Source of the DNA: Natrinema pallidum DSM 3751
Lineage (GTDB): Archaea; Halobacteriota; Halobacteria; Halobacteriales; Natrialbaceae
Direction of reading: 5' to 3'
Assembly: GCF_000337615.1 (NCBI RefSeq)
Contig: NZ_AOII01000045.1
Coordinates: 6,604 to 60,794, forward strand
DNA: 54,191 nucleotides
Program-made: the position numbers and the translations under genes
Notes under the pieces: generated by a model
Database searches by the model: none
The model's input: only the letters and a program-made list of their open reading frames with translations
What the model was told of the DNA's origin: nothing
Shown here: one piece after another, positions 6,358 to 17,275 of the stretch
Layout: each line of letters opens with the position of its first letter
Numbering within the stretch: the first letter of the stretch is position 1

Positions 6358-7788
6358 TTATCCGAGGCTCCCCTCCATCTCGAGTTCGATGAGACGGTTG
6401 AGTTCGACCGCGTACTCGATCGGCAGTTCCTCCGTGATCGGCTCGATGAAGCCGGCGACGATCATCTTCTTGGCGTCGTCGTCGTCCAGTCCGCGGGACT
6501 GGAGGTAGAAGATGTCCTCGTCGCCGATCTTGCCGACGGTCGCCTCGTGGGCGACATCGACCTTCGACTCCTCGATCTCCATGTACGGCATGGTGTCCGA
6601 CGTGGACTCGTTGTCGAACATCAGGGCGTCACACTCGACGGCAGTGCTCGAGTTCTCCGCGCCGTCGGCGATGTGGACGAGCCCGCGGTAGTTGGTGCGG
6701 CCGCCGTCCTTGGAGATCGACTTGGACTCGATGGTCGAACTGGTCTCGGGCGCGTTGTGGTAGACCTTCGCGCCGGTGTCGATGTCCTGGCCCTCGCCCG
6801 CGAAGGCGATGGTGATGTGGGTGTCGGTCGACCCGCGGCCCTTGAGGATCGTACACGGGTAGAGCATGGTCGCTTTCGAGCCCATGCTGCCCGAGACCCA
6901 CTCCATCGTGCCGTTTTCCTCGCAGATGGCGCGCTTGGTGTTGAGGTTGAAGGTGTTCTTCGACCAGTTCTGGACGGTCGAGTACTGGACGTGAGCGTCC
7001 TCGCCGACGAAGACCTCGACGCCGCCCGAGTGCAGGTTGTGGGTGCCGTACTTCGGCGCGGAACAGCCCTCGATGTAGTGGACTTCCGACCCTTCCTCGG
7101 CGATGATGAGCGTGTGCTCGAACTGGCCCATGCCCTCGGAATTCATTCGGAAGTAGGCCTGGACGGGCATCTCGACGGTGACGTCCTCGGGGACGTAGAC
7201 GAAGCTCCCGCCGGACCAGACGGCCCCGTGCAAGGCGGCGAACTTGTTGTCGCTCGGCGGCACGCAGGTCGTCATGAAGTGCTCTTTGACGAGTTCGGGA
7301 TGCTCCCGAACGGCCTCATCCATGTTACAGAAGATGACGCCTTTCTCCTCCCACTGCTCTTGCATGTTCTGGTAGACGACCTCGGACTCGTACTGGGCAC
7401 CGACGCCCGAGAGGGCGTTCTTCTCCGCTTCCGGGATTCCCAGCTTGTCGAACGTGTCCTTGATCTCGTCGGGCAGCTCCGTCCAGTCGTCGACGCCTTC
7501 GCGCTTGTCGACGTCCGGTCGGATATACGGGATGATCTCTTCGACGTCGAGTTCGGAGAGATCGGGCATGCCGGGCCAGTCGGACGGCATCGGCATGTTG
7601 TGGTACTGCTCGAGCGCACGCAGGCGACGCTCGAGCATCCAGTCGGGCTCGTCCTTGTCCTCGGAGATCATGCGAATGACCTCCTCGGTCAGGCCTTTCC
7701 CGGATCGGACCGCGGCGTTCTCTTCCTTCTTGAACTCGAACCGGGCCTCGGTGTCTGTCTCTTGTAGGTGGTCTTGATCGGAACTCAT
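6358..7788 (-). CDS. sufB: Fe-S cluster assembly protein SufB
   Basis: A 476-residue SufB orthologue with the full-length family N-terminus (MISEDKDEPDWMLERRLRA) and the highly conserved central and C-terminal blocks (VHYIEGCSAPKY, WSKNTFNLNTKRA, GSMGSKATMLYPC, NYRGLVHIADGA, HEATVGKIGDEDIFYLQSRG). The Cys in EGCSAPKY and the late Glu/His region match residues involved in cluster assembly in SufB. It forms the scaffold with SufD and the ATPase SufC. It lies 60 bases downstream of sufC and one base upstream of sufD. Confidence 0.96.
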   Translation of the reverse strand: MSSDQDHLQETDTEARFEFKKEENAAVRSGKGLTEEVIRMISEDKDEPDWMLERRLRALEQYHNMPMPSDWPGMPDLSELDVEEIIPYIRPDVDKREGVDDWTELPDEIKDTFDKLGIPEAEKNALSGVGAQYESEVVYQNMQEQWEEKGVIFCNMDEAVREHPELVKEHFMTTCVPPSDNKFAALHGAVWSGGSFVYVPEDVTVEMPVQAYFRMNSEGMGQFEHTLIIAEEGSEVHYIEGCSAPKYGTHNLHSGGVEVFVGEDAHVQYSTVQNWSKNTFNLNTKRAICEENGTMEWVSGSMGSKATMLYPCTILKGRGSTDTHITIAFAGEGQDIDTGAKVYHNAPETSSTIESKSISKDGGRTNYRGLVHIADGAENSSTAVECDALMFDNESTSDTMPYMEIEESKVDVAHEATVGKIGDEDIFYLQSRGLDDDDAKKMIVAGFIEPITEELPIEYAVELNRLIELEMEGSLG

Positions 7789-7848
7789 TGGTTGATGTAG
7801 TTGTGGTTACGGCTGTAGCGTTATTACGGTTGTTCTAGTCGAATCCGG

Positions 7849-8760
7849 TTACGCGGTGCCGTAGACTTCCTCGCGGACCCAGTCGTACCCCTTGTCCTCG
7901 AGCTTCTCGGCGAGTTCGGGCCCGCCGCTCTTGGCGATCTGGCCGTCGAGCATTACGTGGACGTGATCGGGCTCGACGTAGTCGAGGATGCGCTGATAGT
8001 GGGTGATCTGCAGGACGCCGGTGCCTTGCTCGTCGCGCAGGGCGTTGATCCCGTTGGACACGTCCTGCAGGCGGTCGATGTCGAGCCCGGAGTCGATCTC
8101 GTCGAGGACGGCGATCGAGGGCTCGAGGATGGCGGCCTGTAGCACTTCGTTCTGTTTCTTCTCCCCGCCGGAGAACCCGGCGTTGAGGTAGCGCTGGGCG
8201 AACTTTTCGTCCATCTCCAGTTGCTCCATCTTCTCCTGGAGAATTTGCTGGAACTCGGCGACGCCGATTTCGCCCTCATCCGCGGGGCCTTCCATCGGCG
8301 AGGACTCGAAGCCCTCGTCGTCCGCCGCGTCGGACTCGTCATCCTCCTCGTCCTCGAAGAGTTCCTCGCGCTCCTCGATCTTGGCGTTCAGCGCCGTTCG
8401 GAGGAAGTTCGTCATCGTAACGCCCTCGATCTCCGCGGGATACTGGAAGCCGAGGAAGATACCGAGCGCGGCGCGTTCGTTCGGCTCGAGATCGAGGAGG
8501 TTCCAGGTACGCTGATCCTCGTCGATCTCGATATCCTCGCCGAACTCGTCGTCTTCGAGGTGAAGCAGGACGTCGCCCTCGGTGACCTCGTAGGCCGGGT
8601 GGCCGGCGATGACCTTCGCGGTCGTCGACTTCCCGGAGCCGTTCGGTCCCATCAGCGCGTGGATCTCGTCCGACTGAACCTCAAGGTTGACGCCCTCGAG
8701 AATGGTCTCGTCGCCCTCCGCTACTTCCGCATGCAGATTGTTGAGTTCGAGGCGTGCCAT
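7849..8760 (-). CDS. sufC: Fe-S cluster assembly ATPase SufC
   Basis: A 303-residue ABC-type ATPase. Walker A is GPNGSGKSTTAKVI near residue 38, the ABC signature is FSGGEKKQNEVLQ and Walker B is AVLDEIDSGLDID, followed by the His of QITHYQRIL. The FSGGEKKxNE and DEIDSGLDID forms are typical of SufC rather than of transporter ATPases. An acidic, low-complexity insert of about 35 residues (about 130-170, rich in Asp/Glu) precedes the signature and makes the protein longer than the usual 250 residues; this looks like a halophile-specific surface loop. It is the first gene of the suf operon. Confidence 0.96.
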   Translation of the reverse strand: MARLELNNLHAEVAEGDETILEGVNLEVQSDEIHALMGPNGSGKSTTAKVIAGHPAYEVTEGDVLLHLEDDEFGEDIEIDEDQRTWNLLDLEPNERAALGIFLGFQYPAEIEGVTMTNFLRTALNAKIEEREELFEDEEDDESDAADDEGFESSPMEGPADEGEIGVAEFQQILQEKMEQLEMDEKFAQRYLNAGFSGGEKKQNEVLQAAILEPSIAVLDEIDSGLDIDRLQDVSNGINALRDEQGTGVLQITHYQRILDYVEPDHVHVMLDGQIAKSGGPELAEKLEDKGYDWVREEVYGTA

Positions 8761-8985: not shown

Positions 8986-11900
8986 TCACATGAACGAGTC
9001 GAGCCCCTTCTGCTCCTGCCCGCTTTTCACTTCGTCCCACGAGATATCCAGTGCTTCGAGGATGCGCTCGATCGGCCCCTGCAGCGTCTTCTCGAGCATC
9101 TTGTCGTAGTCGACTTCGAACGCCTCGGGGATCTGGTCTTCGTACTCGAAGCAGATGACATCGGGGTCGCGCTTGAACGCACCGTAGCGGGGGTCGGTGC
9201 GGGCGTCGAACCCCTCCTCGGCTTCAAGGCGTTCGAAGAAGGACGGATCGACGCGGTCGAGATAGAGTCGCTTGGGTTTGCTCCCGCGCTGGAAGTTGGT
9301 TCCGAGCAGGAGGTTGGCGTACTTCGCGCCCCGGACCTGGGCCGTGTCGGTGTCGTAGTTGTCGAGTCGTTTTCCGATCCCGCCGGGAATCGCGATCTCC
9401 TCGAGGGAGATGTCGCCCGCGAACACGTCTTCGATGACGCCGTTGACGTACTCCTTGGCACCCTCGACATCGCCCTCGCGGACGATCATCTCGATGACGC
9501 GGTGCTGGACCTCCTTGGTGATCGGCGCGATATCGGACCGCTGGTACTCGAAGCCGACGATGTCGATGTCGTTGACGTCCTTGCCCTCCTTCCAGGTGAT
9601 GTGGCCCGCGTAGCGTTTCTTTTTGCCCGCCTGGAAGAACCGCCGGTAGAGTTTTTCGAACTCGATCTGGAAGCGATGGAACTCGGCACCTAGTTCTTCG
9701 CGCGCAAAATCGTCGTACCGACCGTTGATGTGGTCTTCGAGGTCGAACGACGTTTCGATAGCTTCCGCTTTCGATACGTCGGTACCGAGTTCGAGCATGA
9801 CGCTGTCGGTGTCGCCGTAGGTAACCTCGTAGCCTTCCTCGGTAGCGGCGGTCTCGGTAAACTCGATGACTTCGCGACCAGTGGCAGTGATGGCAGATGC
9901 TGCTTCCTTGTCGTACAGGCGGAACTGCTCCCAACCCGAGACGCCGTACAGCGATTGACCGACGAACTGGAACTTCCCGTTTCGGCCGGCGAGCAGCGTG
10001 TGGTTGTCCTCGACGGTAACGCAGTAAACACCGTCGTCAGCAGTACTTCGAGACGCACTTCGGTGCATTCGAAGCGTGTTTTTCGAGCCCTCAGTGACAT
10101 AGATGCGCCACGAGCCGCTATCACGATTGTAGTTTGCTGTTACGCCGAGATGTGCACAGAGACGGAGAACGTCGTCCCGAAGCCGGTCGCTCGAGGTCGT
10201 ATACCGCCAGGAGTTGGCCTGCCGATCGCCATCGCCGTCGATGAGTACCTCGAGGAACTGTCGTTTCTGTTGGCTGCTGCACTCGAAGACAAACTCGGGG
10301 ATTCGCTTCTCGAAACTGCCGTCGCCACAGTGCGACGTCAATAGATCACTGAGGAGTTTCGATGTGACCGTGTAACATCGATCATCGACGTAGTAGTCGA
10401 ACTCCATGTCATCGAGCAAGTCGCCGATCGTCGCGTGGTGGTCAACGCCGCCGTCGGCAACCGGCAGTTTGTCCTGTGCCAGGGTTACCGTCGTTGCCGA
10501 ACCGCGGAAATTCTCGCCGAACTGCTTGTCTTCGGACGTATAGACGTTTCCTTCCGTTACGAACCATGCAAGCAGGTCGAGGAAATCGTCTCCATCGTAG
10601 GTCCGGGGAATCCATTTCCGTCCGGATTCCCGGTGAATGAAACTTATCTCACAGACCTCTTCGATGTACTCTCGGTGTTCCTCGAACTCCTCGTTCGTGA
10701 AGACGTACCCCGTTTTGCCGACATCAGCTTTCGGTACGCGACGCGGCGTCCAGCCTAATTCCGCCGTGAACGTACGGCCGTGAACGGACGGCCTGACCCA
10801 CACTTCGTATTCGCCGTCGATCAGTTCCGTGAGATCGACCTCCTCGAGCGTGTCTCCGTCGGGGCCCGCCCACCCGTGAGGGAGTTCATAGTTCGTCGCT
10901 CGGTCGAGGTTTCCGGCCTCGACAAAGCTGTACTCGTCGTCCGTGATCCCGTTTGTCTCGTTCTTTCGGACGAGCATGCGGTGATTCGGCGTGACGCGGA
11001 AGTCTATCTTGCTCGTCTCGATATCGATCAGATCGCCGTCGTAGTCGGGATAGTCGTGGGTTTCGACGACCGGCTTGATCTCCAGTTCTTCCGTCTCCGG
11101 ATCGAGCGAATACACGTCGTCGCCGATCTCGAGATCGGTGATCTCGCGCACGCCACTAGGAGTCAAAACCTCCGTATCCGGCGTAAAGCAGTTCATGATA
11201 ACCTTTACCGCCCCCTGCTGGCGGTCGTACTGCTCGTACTCGAGCGATCCGGGCTCGTGTTCGTTTCGCAGTTCCTTCTTCTCCTCGCGCTCGGCGAGCA
11301 GTTCCGTGATCATCTCGCGCATGACGCCGTCGGGTTCCTTGCGGAAGTGAATTTCATCCTCGCCGACCGGCGCGACGTAGGTGTCACCGTCGTACTCGTC
11401 GGGATCGACCCTCGTCTCGGGCGAGGCGTTGATCGTCGTCATACACATCGGGTACAGCGACTTCAGGTCCAGTACGGTGACGTTCTCCTTGACGCCCGTG
11501 ATGGGCTCGAACACCGCGCCGCCCTCGTACTCCTCGCCGGCCTCCTGTTGCCCCTTCGATGGCAGCGCGAACCGCCCGTAGGCCTCGTGGAGGACGTACA
11601 TGTCGACCGCATCGCCCGGCGTCGGCGCGTCCTCGAGTTTGCAGCCGACGAACGAGCGCACCTCGTCCCAGAAGGGGATGATCTCCTGTTGGCGGTCGAG
11701 TTCGACACAGAGTTCGACGTCCCGCAGGTTGTACTCGAGCAACTGCGTGGGGTCGCCCTCCCAGAGGTCGCCGATATCGCCGGCGTAGCGTTCCTTGCCG
11801 ACGCCCAGCTCCGCCTCCCCGACGGCGTCGAGCCGGTACGAATCCAGTTCGGAGAAGACCATCCGCTGGTAGCCATAGAGGAGATCGAAGACGACCCGAC

Positions 11901-12960
11901 CCTTGATGTCCGGGCCGCCCCAGTTGCTGCGCCAGACCTCGTCGACTCGCGAGAGGCGATCGATCGAGAGGTCGTAGTCGTGGTGAGGACCCGAAAGCTC
12001 CTCGAGTCGGTCGAGGAAGTACGGTGCGTCGAAATCCTCGAAGTTCCAGCCCGTGAGGACGTCGGGGTCGGTTGCCTCGATATACTCGATGAAGGCCTCG
12101 AGCATGGCCTCCTCCTCCCCGAAGCACCGCACGTCGTGGTCGATCTCGCCCTCGATCGGTTCGTACTCCGTAATCTCGGTCGGAATTTCGCCGTCGCCGA
12201 CCGGGGCCTCGTAGAGCCACATGACGTACTCGTCGCGGTAGGAGTCGTGGCTGGTGAGACAGAGAATCGGCTCCTCGCCGTCCTCGGGAAAGCCCGAGCG
12301 GTCGTCGACCTCGATGTCGAAGGTATTCACGCGCGGAGCGGCGTCGACGTCGACCGCTTCGACCTCGTCGTGGGGGACGACCAGTGAGCCGTCGTCGGCG
12401 CGGCGTTCGGGGACCCGAATCCCGCTGCGAACGTCCTTGTCGATCAGAAGCCGGTTGGGAAACAGAATGTCGGCCTCGTAGTGGTCGAAGTCGTCGCGGA
12501 CCTGCCCGACGTCACGGGGTGTCTGGCCGAAGATCTTGGTGAGTTTCTCGCCCCGAATACTCTCGTAGGGCTCGCCGTCCTCGTCGTACTCCCGACTACC
12601 AGTCAACCGGTCGTACTGTTCCTCCGGCGGTCGCTCTAAACTCTCCGTCGGCGCGTAGAAATACGGTTTGAAGCCGACGACCTGTACGTGCTCTAGCTCG
12701 CCGTCGGGCGTCCGTCCGAAGACGTGCATGATCGGCCGTTCCTCGTCGCCGTAGCCGGCGATCGTGTAGTCGACCTGCATCACGGCGAGTTCGAGGGTGC
12801 CCTCGGATTCGGGCAGCGTTTCCTCGACGACGTCGATAACCTCCGCGGCGTCGGACCCGCCGTTACCGGCGATGGCAACCGCCTCTTCGTCCGGCCGGTC
12901 GTCGGTCTCCGCGGAGTCGCCGCCGAACTCCGTGAGTCCGGTCTGGCCCGCCTCAGTCAT
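8986..12960 (-). CDS. polB: Family B DNA polymerase (PolB) containing an intein
   Basis: The precursor is 1324 residues; removing the 412-residue intein leaves 912, normal for haloarchaeal PolB. The 3'-5' exonuclease motifs are present (NTFDIEVDD, TGWNFEDFDAPYF, YNLRDVELCVELD), as are polymerase motif A (VLDLKSLYPMCM), motif B (KVIMN joined to SLYG after splicing) and motif C (TYGDTDSVML). This is the main replicative or co-replicative archaeal B-family enzyme. The ATG at 12960 is chosen because a TATA-like element lies about 27 bases upstream and because translation upstream of it lacks haloarchaeal composition, although the frame stays open to 13173. Confidence 0.96.
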   Translation of the reverse strand: MTEAGQTGLTEFGGDSAETDDRPDEEAVAIAGNGGSDAAEVIDVVEETLPESEGTLELAVMQVDYTIAGYGDEERPIMHVFGRTPDGELEHVQVVGFKPYFYAPTESLERPPEEQYDRLTGSREYDEDGEPYESIRGEKLTKIFGQTPRDVGQVRDDFDHYEADILFPNRLLIDKDVRSGIRVPERRADDGSLVVPHDEVEAVDVDAAPRVNTFDIEVDDRSGFPEDGEEPILCLTSHDSYRDEYVMWLYEAPVGDGEIPTEITEYEPIEGEIDHDVRCFGEEEAMLEAFIEYIEATDPDVLTGWNFEDFDAPYFLDRLEELSGPHHDYDLSIDRLSRVDEVWRSNWGGPDIKGRVVFDLLYGYQRMVFSELDSYRLDAVGEAELGVGKERYAGDIGDLWEGDPTQLLEYNLRDVELCVELDRQQEIIPFWDEVRSFVGCKLEDAPTPGDAVDMYVLHEAYGRFALPSKGQQEAGEEYEGGAVFEPITGVKENVTVLDLKSLYPMCMTTINASPETRVDPDEYDGDTYVAPVGEDEIHFRKEPDGVMREMITELLAEREEKKELRNEHEPGSLEYEQYDRQQGAVKVIMNCFTPDTEVLTPSGVREITDLEIGDDVYSLDPETEELEIKPVVETHDYPDYDGDLIDIETSKIDFRVTPNHRMLVRKNETNGITDDEYSFVEAGNLDRATNYELPHGWAGPDGDTLEEVDLTELIDGEYEVWVRPSVHGRTFTAELGWTPRRVPKADVGKTGYVFTNEEFEEHREYIEEVCEISFIHRESGRKWIPRTYDGDDFLDLLAWFVTEGNVYTSEDKQFGENFRGSATTVTLAQDKLPVADGGVDHHATIGDLLDDMEFDYYVDDRCYTVTSKLLSDLLTSHCGDGSFEKRIPEFVFECSSQQKRQFLEVLIDGDGDRQANSWRYTTSSDRLRDDVLRLCAHLGVTANYNRDSGSWRIYVTEGSKNTLRMHRSASRSTADDGVYCVTVEDNHTLLAGRNGKFQFVGQSLYGVSGWEQFRLYDKEAASAITATGREVIEFTETAATEEGYEVTYGDTDSVMLELGTDVSKAEAIETSFDLEDHINGRYDDFAREELGAEFHRFQIEFEKLYRRFFQAGKKKRYAGHITWKEGKDVNDIDIVGFEYQRSDIAPITKEVQHRVIEMIVREGDVEGAKEYVNGVIEDVFAGDISLEEIAIPGGIGKRLDNYDTDTAQVRGAKYANLLLGTNFQRGSKPKRLYLDRVDPSFFERLEAEEGFDARTDPRYGAFKRDPDVICFEYEDQIPEAFEVDYDKMLEKTLQGPIERILEALDISWDEVKSGQEQKGLDSFM
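9955..11190 (-). other. PolB intein with LAGLIDADG-type homing endonuclease
   Basis: The intein covers precursor residues 591-1002. It interrupts polymerase motif B between Asn (KVIMN) and Ser (SLYG). It begins with Cys (CFTPDTEVLTPSG, block A) and has the block B histidine (VTPNHRML). Two LAGLIDADG-like motifs, LLAWFVTEGN and FLEVLIDGDGD, keep their acidic residues, so the endonuclease may be active. The C-terminal block reads FQFVGQ before the Ser. The usual His-Asn end is replaced by Gly-Gln, so splicing must cyclise Gln or use a variant route. C-terminal Gln inteins are known but uncommon. Confidence 0.93.
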
Positions 12961-14590: not shown

Positions 14591-17275
14591 CTAGTCGGAC
14601 GCGAGTAGTTCTACGTCCGGCGGTTCACCATGTTCGAGCCGCGACCGGTTCGATGTCGCGTCCTTCTCGACGCGGACGAGCGAGTCGGCCGCGCCGACGA
14701 GTTCCTCGTCGTGGCTCACGACGACGATCTGTTCGACGCCGAGCTCGCGCATCGACTCGATCAGTGAGACGAGTTGGGTCACGTGACCCGAATCGAGAAA
14801 CACCGTCGGCTCATCGAGAATCAGCGGCGGCATCGGTGCCGATCCGTCGACGCCCTCGGCGAGCAGCCGGTAGATCGCACACCGCAGGCTGAGGTTGAAC
14901 AGTGCTCGTTCGCCGCCGGATAGCTGTTCGGGCTCGAGCGCCTCGCCGTCTTTCTGATACACCGTCAGCCGGTAGTCGCCGTCGAGATCGATCGCCGCGT
15001 AGGAATCGTTCTGATAGACCAGTTCGAACGTTTCGTTGAGCAGCCGCTCTAAGGTCTCGACGTTGTGTTGGCGCAGTTCCGCCCGCAGGTCACCGTACGT
15101 GGTCTGGAGGGTCTCGGCCTCCTCGTAGAGGGATTCGAGTCGCTCACAGCGATCCTCGACCGACTCGAGGCGGTCGCGAAGCCGCTCGAGTTCTTCGAGT
15201 TCGTTCTCGGCGGCACCGATGGCGTTTTGCATCTCGGTCCGCCGCTCCTCGAGTTCGGCGAGTTTGTCGTCGACCTGTTCGATGTAGCGCTCGGCGTTGG
15301 CCTTGTCCTCGCGTGCCGTTTCGATGCGGTCCTCGTCGAACTCCGACTCGAGGTCGCGTTTGCGGTCGCGCTTTTCGGAAAGGGTCTCGCGGCGCTCGTC
15401 GTTCATGTCCTTCCAGTCTTGCCGCCGTTCGCGGAGGGTTTCGATCTCGCTCTCGAGACTCGCCCGCTCGTCGGCGATCGCGGAAATGCGTTCGAGGGAC
15501 TCGAGGGTCTCCGTGAGCTCCCCGCGCTCGGTGTTGATCTCGCCGAGTTCGGCCCGTGCGTCTGCCACCTCGTCCTCACGGTTGGCCGCCGCGGATCGCT
15601 TTTCGTCGGCGTCGGCGTCGTACTCCGCGGCGTCCGCTCGGAGCTGATCGCGCTGGTCGCGCCGGTCCGCGAGACGTTCGCGTTTCTCGGCGAGTAACTG
15701 TTCGATGTTGTCGCGATTTTCCGCGAGTCGCTCGACTCGCCGTTCGGCCTCCCGGAGCGCCTCGGCGCGGTCGATCCGGTCGTCGAGGTTCTCACGCTCC
15801 GCGTCGAGGTCCTCGCGGTCGGCCTCGAGGTCGGCGAGTTCCTCCCGGCGGTCGTCGAGCACGTCGACGTGGGGCGAGTCCTCGACCGGCTGGCCACACT
15901 CGGGACACTTCCCCTCCTCGAGCAGCCGTTCGCCCTCCTCGATCGCGTTCTCGGCGGTGCGTATGTCGGCAGTGATGTCGTTGATCGCCGCGTCCAGCTC
16001 CTCGCGTTCGGTCTCGAGGTCGTCGAGGTGGGACGCCGCCTCGCCGAACGTGATCGGCGCGTCGTCGAACGTCGCCCGCGCGGATTCGATCTCCGCCTCG
16101 AGGTCCTCGAGTTTCGCCTCGCGGTCCGCGATCGCCTCCTCGTCGGCCTCGATTCGCTCGTCGAGGTCGTCGGCCTCCTCGCGAGCGCGTTCGGCCTGCG
16201 CTTCGCAGTCGTCGGCCGCCTCGCGGAGTCGCTCGATCTCGTCGGTCCCGGTTTGAATCGTCACCGTCAACTCCTGTAGCTCGTCGCCGAGTTCCTCGTC
16301 GCGAGCCTCGAGTTCCGCGATGCGGTCCCGGACCGCACCCTCGTCGGGGTCGTCGCTCTCGAGGCCGACGGTCTCGAGGAGGTCGCCGCGTTCGGCCGCG
16401 AGTTCCTCGCGGCGGTCCCGAACCTCGCTGATCTCGTCGCCCGCCGCCTCGCGCTTGCGCTCGGTCTCGGAAATCTTCGATCGGAGGGCCTCGATATCGG
16501 CAGTCAGTTCCGCGATCTCCTCACGGGTCTCCTCGTGGCGGTCGAGGACGTCTTCGGCCGTCTCGAGCGTCTCCGTGGCCTGCTCGCGCTGTGTCTCGTA
16601 GTGATCGATCTCCTCGACGACGTCAGTTCGGCGGGACTCGAGGCTGTTCAGCCGCTCGTGGAGGTCCTTCGCCTCTTTCTGCTCGACCTGAGTGCGAACG
16701 TCCTCGAGGACCTCCCGCTGGCCGTCCAGCACCGCTTTGACGCCGAGGCGGGCCTCGCTGGCGCGCTCCCGGTAGTCCTCGAGCGCGCCCAGCTGGAGGA
16801 GGTCGTCGATCATGTCCTGGCGATCGCTCGGCGAGGCGTGGATGAGCTTGTTGACCTCGCCCTGCCGGACGTACGCGCAGTTGACGAACGCGTCGGCGTC
16901 CATCCGCAGGAGCTGCGTGACCTCCCGACGAACGTCGCGAGCGCCCTCGATCGTCTCGGTCGGCGTCTCGAGCACGCACTTCGTCGTGGCCGCGCGGTCG
17001 CCGCGCAGTTTGAGCCGGCGCTCGACGTGGTACTCGCGGTCGTCGTGGGTAAACCACAGTTCGACCGCCGCTTCCTCCTCGCCGGTCGTGATGACATCGT
17101 CGAGCGTGCGGTCGTCCAACGCCTTCGAGCCGTAGAGCGCGAAGAAGACGGCCTCGAGCAGCGTCGACTTCCCGCTGCCGTTGACGCCGTGGACGACGGT
17201 GACGCCGCGCTCGAGCGTGAGATCGGCGTCGCCGTAACACTTGAAGTTCAACAACTGAACGCGATCGACTCTCAT
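14591..17275 (-). CDS. rad50: DNA double-strand break repair ATPase Rad50
   Basis: An 894-residue SMC-like ATPase. The N-terminal Walker A is NGSGKSTLLEAVFFALYG and the Q-loop is YVRQGEVNKL. Long coiled-coil arms (about residues 170-440 and 475-720) flank a zinc hook, GKCPECGQPVEDSPH, near residue 457. The C-terminal lobe has the signature LSGGERALFNLSLRCA and Walker B PLILDEPTVFLDSGH. It forms the Mre11-Rad50 complex that tethers and processes DNA ends. Its ATG overlaps the mre11 stop by four bases. The length fits archaeal Rad50. The arms are strongly acidic, as expected in a halophile. Confidence 0.97.
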   Translation of the reverse strand: MRVDRVQLLNFKCYGDADLTLERGVTVVHGVNGSGKSTLLEAVFFALYGSKALDDRTLDDVITTGEEEAAVELWFTHDDREYHVERRLKLRGDRAATTKCVLETPTETIEGARDVRREVTQLLRMDADAFVNCAYVRQGEVNKLIHASPSDRQDMIDDLLQLGALEDYRERASEARLGVKAVLDGQREVLEDVRTQVEQKEAKDLHERLNSLESRRTDVVEEIDHYETQREQATETLETAEDVLDRHEETREEIAELTADIEALRSKISETERKREAAGDEISEVRDRREELAAERGDLLETVGLESDDPDEGAVRDRIAELEARDEELGDELQELTVTIQTGTDEIERLREAADDCEAQAERAREEADDLDERIEADEEAIADREAKLEDLEAEIESARATFDDAPITFGEAASHLDDLETEREELDAAINDITADIRTAENAIEEGERLLEEGKCPECGQPVEDSPHVDVLDDRREELADLEADREDLDAERENLDDRIDRAEALREAERRVERLAENRDNIEQLLAEKRERLADRRDQRDQLRADAAEYDADADEKRSAAANREDEVADARAELGEINTERGELTETLESLERISAIADERASLESEIETLRERRQDWKDMNDERRETLSEKRDRKRDLESEFDEDRIETAREDKANAERYIEQVDDKLAELEERRTEMQNAIGAAENELEELERLRDRLESVEDRCERLESLYEEAETLQTTYGDLRAELRQHNVETLERLLNETFELVYQNDSYAAIDLDGDYRLTVYQKDGEALEPEQLSGGERALFNLSLRCAIYRLLAEGVDGSAPMPPLILDEPTVFLDSGHVTQLVSLIESMRELGVEQIVVVSHDEELVGAADSLVRVEKDATSNRSRLEHGEPPDVELLASD

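Follow-up and report, generated by a model that had tools for sequence, protein, structure and literature searches.

The DNA polymerase B (PolB) gene of the haloarchaeon Natrinema pallidum DSM 3751 carries an intein that ends in Gly-Gln instead of His-Asn. How would such an intein leave its host protein, and is its end peculiar to this locus or common to a wider group? The original prediction, made on the window (the whole stretch of 54,191 nucleotides that was analysed), called a Gln end rare and took the missing penultimate His as the mark of a mechanistic variant. The feature itself turns out to be the standard end of a known and widespread allele. That prediction missed the published polB-b allele, the retained block-F His and the covariation of this His with the terminal residue. 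The new leads are this covariation and a stand-alone offshoot of the intein lineage.

The intein and its host gene

The intein lies exactly at the predicted coordinates (Table 1), in one frame with PolB, with KVIMN of motif B on one side and SLYG on the other; no stop or frameshift interrupts the joint frame. PolB has 1324 codons with the 412-codon intein and 912 once spliced. The intein starts with CFTPDTEVL and ends with VEDNHTLLAGRNGKFQFVGQ. It matches the Pfam families Hint_2 (3.9e-9) and LAGLIDADG_3 (8e-7) as well as the NCBIfam models intein_Nterm (TIGR01445, 3.2e-8) and intein_Cterm (TIGR01443, 9e-4), each above its cut-off. The first-position Cys and both acidic LAGLIDADG motifs (LLAWFVTEG and LEVLIDGDG) are present as described, and the junction codons, GGT for Gly411 (9958-9960), CAA for Gln412 (9955-9957) and TCG for Ser+1 (9952-9954), bear out the FVGQ end before Ser and the absence of a penultimate His. 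V71, T72, P73, N74 and H75 of block B are invariant in alignment A1, the numbering of which is that of the window intein plus five. A single match to the intein is found in the organism's own genome. Judged by eye from the translations, minus-strand frames at 6358-8760 resemble SufB and SufC, and a frame at 14591-17275 on the same strand, on the other side of PolB, is Rad50-like.

Table 1. Coordinates of PolB, its intein, the residues with a predicted role and the stand-alone relatives.
Feature	Position	Strand	Remarks
Family B DNA polymerase (PolB) gene	8986..12960	minus	Open frame; Pfam DNA_pol_B 8e-41, DNA_pol_B_exo1 1e-20
Intein, 412 aa, CFTPDT...FQFVGQ	9955..11190	minus	PolB motif B, KVIMN/SLYG
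Cys1, predicted step 1 nucleophile	11188..11190	minus	Cys in 138/138 distinct b-site inserts
Block B RVTPNH (Thr67, His70)	10981..10998	minus	Read directly
First LAGLIDADG motif region, DDFLDLLAWFVTEG (Glu213)	10549..10590	minus	99% of full-length copies have Glu
Second LAGLIDADG motif region, QKRQFLEVLIDGDGD (Asp320)	10225..10269	minus	98% of full-length copies have Asp
Block F region, GVYCVTVEDNHTLLAGRNGKF; Cys390 at F:4, His397 (10000-10002)	9970..10032	minus	
Block G end, Gly411-Gln412	9955..9960	minus	Gln 128/138, Asn 10/138; Gly 134/138, Ser 4/138
Ser+1 of C-extein, predicted step 2 nucleophile	9952..9954	minus	Ser in 138/138
Stand-alone relatives	L253-L268, e.g. L257:5857-7179, L183:1986-3239	plus (L257), minus (L183)	

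By its residues the intein is of class 1 and ordinary for its family. It has Cys1, a TxxH motif in block B, a cyclisable C-terminal Gln and Ser+1; a penultimate His, common in class 1 and not defining for it, is replaced by Gly411. The two acidic dodecapeptide motifs place it among the LAGLIDADG homing endonuclease inteins, and its insertion at motif B KVIMN/SLYG assigns it to the known haloarchaeal polB-b allele, a name that we infer to denote the MN/SLYG site from the order of the sites and the lengths of their inteins. Class 3, which has Cys at F:4 and no position-1 nucleophile, was considered and rejected: despite Cys390 at F:4, Cys1 is present and invariant. Among the distinct proteins with an insert at this site, F:4 is Cys in 131/138 and Ser in 7/138.

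An AlphaFold2 model built from 42 window and named sequences (pLDDT 86.3, pTM 0.87) has the HINT fold, with intein and Hedgehog structures matching at Z 14-24. In the PDB the intein-nuclease structures 2cw7 (Z 23.9, rmsd 6.5, 382 residues aligned) and 7qsu (Z 23.2, rmsd 4.7, 307 aligned) match best, and 1dq3, another intein nuclease, is also among the matches. Mini-inteins are found as well, such as 7oec (Z 14.7), the Pho Pol II intein with a Gln end; Hedgehog 1at0 scores Z 15.3, and the nuclease part matches the I-DmoI type at Z about 14.

Occupancy of the site

Among the 125 genomes of the Natrialbaceae, DNA patterns for the intein tail and for the uninterrupted site pick out 32 with the tail and 86 with the uninterrupted site, none carrying both; within the window's genus (29 genomes) 8 are occupied and 21 uninterrupted. 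The uninterrupted pattern is not found in the window, and as it occurs in those 86 genomes the borders of the intein are precise. Such an exact and patchy insertion is what is expected of a homing intein; it fits homing without proving it. A scan of viral_contigs for intein relatives gave two pattern stretches, neither of which was confirmed, and no relative.

The Gly-Gln end across haloarchaeal PolB inteins

The class-wide sample comprised 391 genomes, 250 of which match the window intein at E 0.001 or better, many through other, distant inteins. From the matches listed 129 genome loci were fetched (the best 30 and 99 chosen stretches); these and 63 overlapping named loci make up the 192 that were examined for inserts in PolB, nine of which hold no PolB. 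The site letters used here are our own labels. At site b (MN/SLYG) the 129 fetched loci hold 116 inserts, ending in GQ in 108, GN in 6 and SN in 2; at site a (DLK/SLYP) the end is GQ in 26/26. The search for the same end in haloarchaeal PolB sequences that had been proposed as a check thus finds it in abundance, also among the overlapping named loci, where 56 of 60 b-site rows end in GQ, three in SN and one in GN. The Gln end is therefore real, as predicted; far from being rare, it is the rule in haloarchaeal PolB at these two sites. Site c (YGD/TDS) has 22 inserts in the same 129 loci, 21 with an HN end and one cut by the end of its locus, and three more sit at a fourth site within the exonuclease region, where they read VHN before Cys after a one-residue shift. 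Four other large insertions, a single one in each of L021, L022 and L171 and a cut one in L027, were left out of the intein counts for other sites. Site-c inteins (e.g. L048, L101) have Ser first and HN last, with Glu, Asp or Gln at the usual position of the block-F His, a combination opposite to that of sites a and b within the same PolB protein.

The amino acids of the end are kept while their codons drift, since Gly and Gln are written by varied synonymous codons. Over the 139 distinct DNA sequences of b-site inserts, the final codon is CAG in 84, CAA in 45, AAC in 5 and AAT in 5, and the penultimate one uses all four Gly codons, with TCA in four. Gly-Gln is shared by relatives of the window intein at 97, 96 and 95% identity (the nearest named ones are Natrinema altunense, 96%, and N. 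ejinorense, 95%) and is kept in b-site inteins down to about 41% identity. Two further types were seen at this site. The inteins of L196 and L197 (365-366 aa) end in GQ and have lost the LAGLIDADG acids (YITGGEL, VAGGGQY); they are probably dead nucleases that keep their splicing parts. A shorter type of 353-356 aa, with a GN or SN end (L085, L086, L088, L089, L176, L178, L182, L185, L216), has no His at either the block-F or the penultimate position.

The Gly-Gln end is very probably a stable trait, kept by selection throughout the lineage. It could instead be a transient, suboptimal stage after the loss of His-Asn, on its way to repair or decay, as section 6 of PMC4031507, in the portion available, suggests for Gln-ended and non-His inteins generally; the Asn end of 10/138 b-site proteins would agree with this. 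We consider it improbable, given that GQ persists over the range of divergence just described and in every site-a insert of the fetched loci, that it also occurs in three Halorutilus-type rows placed outside all others on the tree, and that the terminal residue changes just 3 to 5 times on that tree.

A probable route of splicing with a terminal Gln

An insert in an active-site motif that is conserved in many genomes presumably has to be removed for PolB to function. From the anatomy, conservation, precise and patchy insertion and predicted fold, all established here, the window intein is very probably a working class 1 polB-b intein, with a LAGLIDADG nuclease that is probably intact and a C-junction that would be cut by Gln cyclisation in the absence of a penultimate His. 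Cys1 would form a thioester, assisted by Thr67 and His70 of block B, and the N-extein would be transferred to Ser+1. Gln412 would then cyclise to a glutarimide, cutting the C-junction, with the help of block-F His397, a role proposed because there is no penultimate His. An O-N shift would yield native PolB, and the nuclease would cut uninterrupted polB alleles and so spread the element.

A Gln-dependent third step has precedents in the available portions of the literature. C-terminal-Gln inteins are described as class 1 in their route, step 3 proceeding by cyclisation of the Gln, with alternatives being possible; the penultimate residue is other than His in about 5% of functional inteins, and block-F His has been proposed as an aid to step 3 (PMC4031507). 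Gln-ended inteins do splice, block-F His is considered an aid to them, and cyclisation of Gln has been reported before, among others in the Pol II and CIV RNR inteins (PMC4031507, PMC8229266, PMC8175363). The idea of a mechanistic variant hence holds for step 3 only, and there as a known one. Those Pol II inteins that have been described with a Gln end are slow to splice and retain the penultimate His (PMC4031507, PMC8229266, PMC8175363), whereas the window intein lacks it, which counts against our explanation. So does the variation at position 397, which is His in 120/138 distinct b-site proteins and Asn in 18: as 8/138 without the His are still Gln-ended, this His is not indispensable.

The missing penultimate His would also agree with a cut at the C-junction that bypasses Gln cyclisation, for instance by hydrolysis of the branched ester or through another residue, and PMC4031507, as far as its text was available, allows for other mechanisms. 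Such a cut is very improbable here, as the last position holds Gln or Asn, the two cyclising amides, in 138/138 distinct proteins, whereas in the junction-less stand-alone relatives described below each of the 13 tabulated tails carries Val, Ala or Thr at that place. A sequence error or a dead, non-splicing insert, conceivable inasmuch as splicing is deduced from sequence, can practically be dismissed in view of the shared end in close relatives and class-wide, the open frame and the invariant catalytic positions; the error at 9955-9960 that had been named as a refutation is excluded by the 108 of 116 fetched b-site inserts with the same end and by the varied codons that encode it.

Covariation of block F with the last residue

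In the 138 distinct b-site proteins the residues at block F and at the end pair as His-Gln (120), Asn-Gln (8) or Asn-Asn (10), with no His-Asn; the block-F His is missing from every Asn-ended protein. A DNA-pattern census of three families (170, 146 and 125 genomes), which admits some codons only (Ser as AGY, so that the NSN forms with their TCA escape it), gives 128, 9, 7 and 0 for the same four classes among 144 sites. Fisher tests give p 9e-11 for the proteins and 5e-8 for the census sites, both ignoring kinship; with a sign test restricted to independent pairs, 0.05 is out of reach.

When the tail is left out of the tree, the block-F residue changes seven times and the last residue three times; adding a further eight b-site rows and the inteins of site a brings these to eight and five, on a tree in which the rows of the DLK/SLYP site do not form one clade, leaving the root unsure. 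One of the five is an apparent return from Asn to Gln in L196/L197, on a long branch with degenerate nuclease motifs. An estimate from branch lengths (p about 1e-4 for the five changes), which assumes no recombination, was set aside because of this return and the unsure root. The change from Gln (CAR) to Asn (AAY) requires two base changes. The identity of L153 to its sister L147 drops towards the junction, where its identity to L216, which ends in Asn and comes from the same genus, is high, so that the Asn tail of L153 may have come by recombination; exchange of a short tail is likely in at least this one case. Strict co-switching of the two residues was rejected on the eight Asn-Gln proteins of the full set.

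As a lead, then, the last residue appears to covary with the block-F His, through few independent switches, some of them probably recombination. Gln may be the safe and slower choice while the block-F His is present, and Asn may restore the rate once it is lost. His with Asn is found in other inteins, including those at the exonuclease site of PolB, so any constraint would be specific to the haloarchaeal Gly-Gln PolB lineage. What was presumed an oddity offers an extensive natural series for the study of the slowest splicing step, with more than 100 sequenced inteins that lack the penultimate His and keep Gln, together with natural Asn variants.

Stand-alone LAGLIDADG relatives

Nine of the first matches lie outside PolB. 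They are stand-alone frames that keep the LAGLIDADG motifs, have no exteins and read Gly-Gly-Phe/Leu at the place of Cys1; their end reads, for example, FQWVGVSNVS-stop where an intein has FQWVGQ-Ser. A class-wide search with one member finds 16 such genes in the 391 genomes at E 6e-107 or better; the next match, at 1e-103, is the b-site intein of a second copy of PolB, and the rest follow at 2e-75 or weaker. Residues were tabulated for 13 of the 16 loci, in full for 11 (L264 gave a tail match only, and the first nuclease motif of L263 was unrecognised); in them Cys1 is replaced by Gly and Gln by Val, Ala or Thr. One second copy of PolB, located on a 135-kb contig (L171/L239, G228 contig 3), has its own b-site intein with GQ ahead of SVYG, the closest of the PolB inteins to the stand-alone family (42%).

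Conjugation-like genes are often found close to the 16 genes; recurrent neighbouring frames are TrwB-like (9), NrS-1-polymerase-like (6) and TraG-like (4), each cluster being named from one or two members and the TrwB match being weak. A gene for a pilin-like DUF7261 protein occurs in 8/16 of the genomes at E 5e-11 or better; weaker matches, mostly N-terminal only, were taken as paralogues. In seven of the eight its distance to the stand-alone gene is between 6 bases and 1.4 kb, in the eighth it is 20 kb, and in 7/8 the first 10 to 130 positions of the profile precede the start of the match, so that the 5' part is mostly missing.

The second lead is that this family may be an offshoot of the Gly-Gln PolB intein lineage which lost Cys1, Gln and exteins and would be splice-dead. 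If confirmed, it would be an archaeal case of an intein turned free nuclease, a change that to our knowledge is so far best known from yeast HO. A wider scheme joins both leads: a long-lived Gly-Gln lineage whose step 3 would be tuned by the pairs His/Gln or Asn/Asn, with His/Asn avoided as cleaving too early, and which gave rise to splice-dead, extein-less nucleases, a prokaryotic counterpart of HO/WHO that would ride conjugative elements and target the 5' end of the DUF7261 gene. We offer it tentatively and think it rather unlikely to hold as a whole.

Comparison with known systems

The closest published relative is the haloarchaeal polB-b allele, given for 38 Halobacteria by Soucy et al. 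2014 (PMC4071816), which shares host gene and organism class with the window intein; the available text of that paper contains neither 'glutamine' nor 'asparagine' and mentions no Gly-Gln end. Nor was this end of haloarchaeal PolB inteins, or the covariation, found in the portions available of the full-text literature, outside which InBase and most subscription papers lie, and either may already be in print. Nine instances of 'Gln' in the available text of PMC3990103 refer to glnA and to no intein residue.

The DNA polymerase II inteins of Pyrococcus abyssi and P. horikoshii resemble the window intein in class 1 residues, C-terminal Gln and block-F His, and have a slow third step; they differ in being mini-inteins of another polymerase, with a penultimate His and Cys+1 (PMC8175363, PMC8229266, in the parts available). 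The RNR intein of Chilo iridescent virus, compared here by its description, is likewise of the Gln type, in a different host protein and in a virus (PMC4031507, PMC549080), and is reported to splice better with Gln than with Asn (PMC4031507). In fold, the best whole-length match is the archaeal intein homing endonuclease PI-PkoII (2cw7; Z 23.9, 382 aligned), which has 537 residues compared with 412; identity over the structural alignment is 19%, and the sequence match (E 2.3e-9) lies in the nuclease domain. Like yeast HO and WHO, as portrayed in the accessible part of PMC7282806, the stand-alone proteins are putative intein-like nucleases, predicted not to splice, often beside what is left of a possible target gene. 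The WHO elements sit beside FBA1 (PMC7282806), an arrangement that the stand-alone genes and DUF7261 recall by their gene positions alone. HO and WHO differ in belonging to yeast and in having a zinc finger, whereas in the haloarchaea DUF7261 is only a candidate target.
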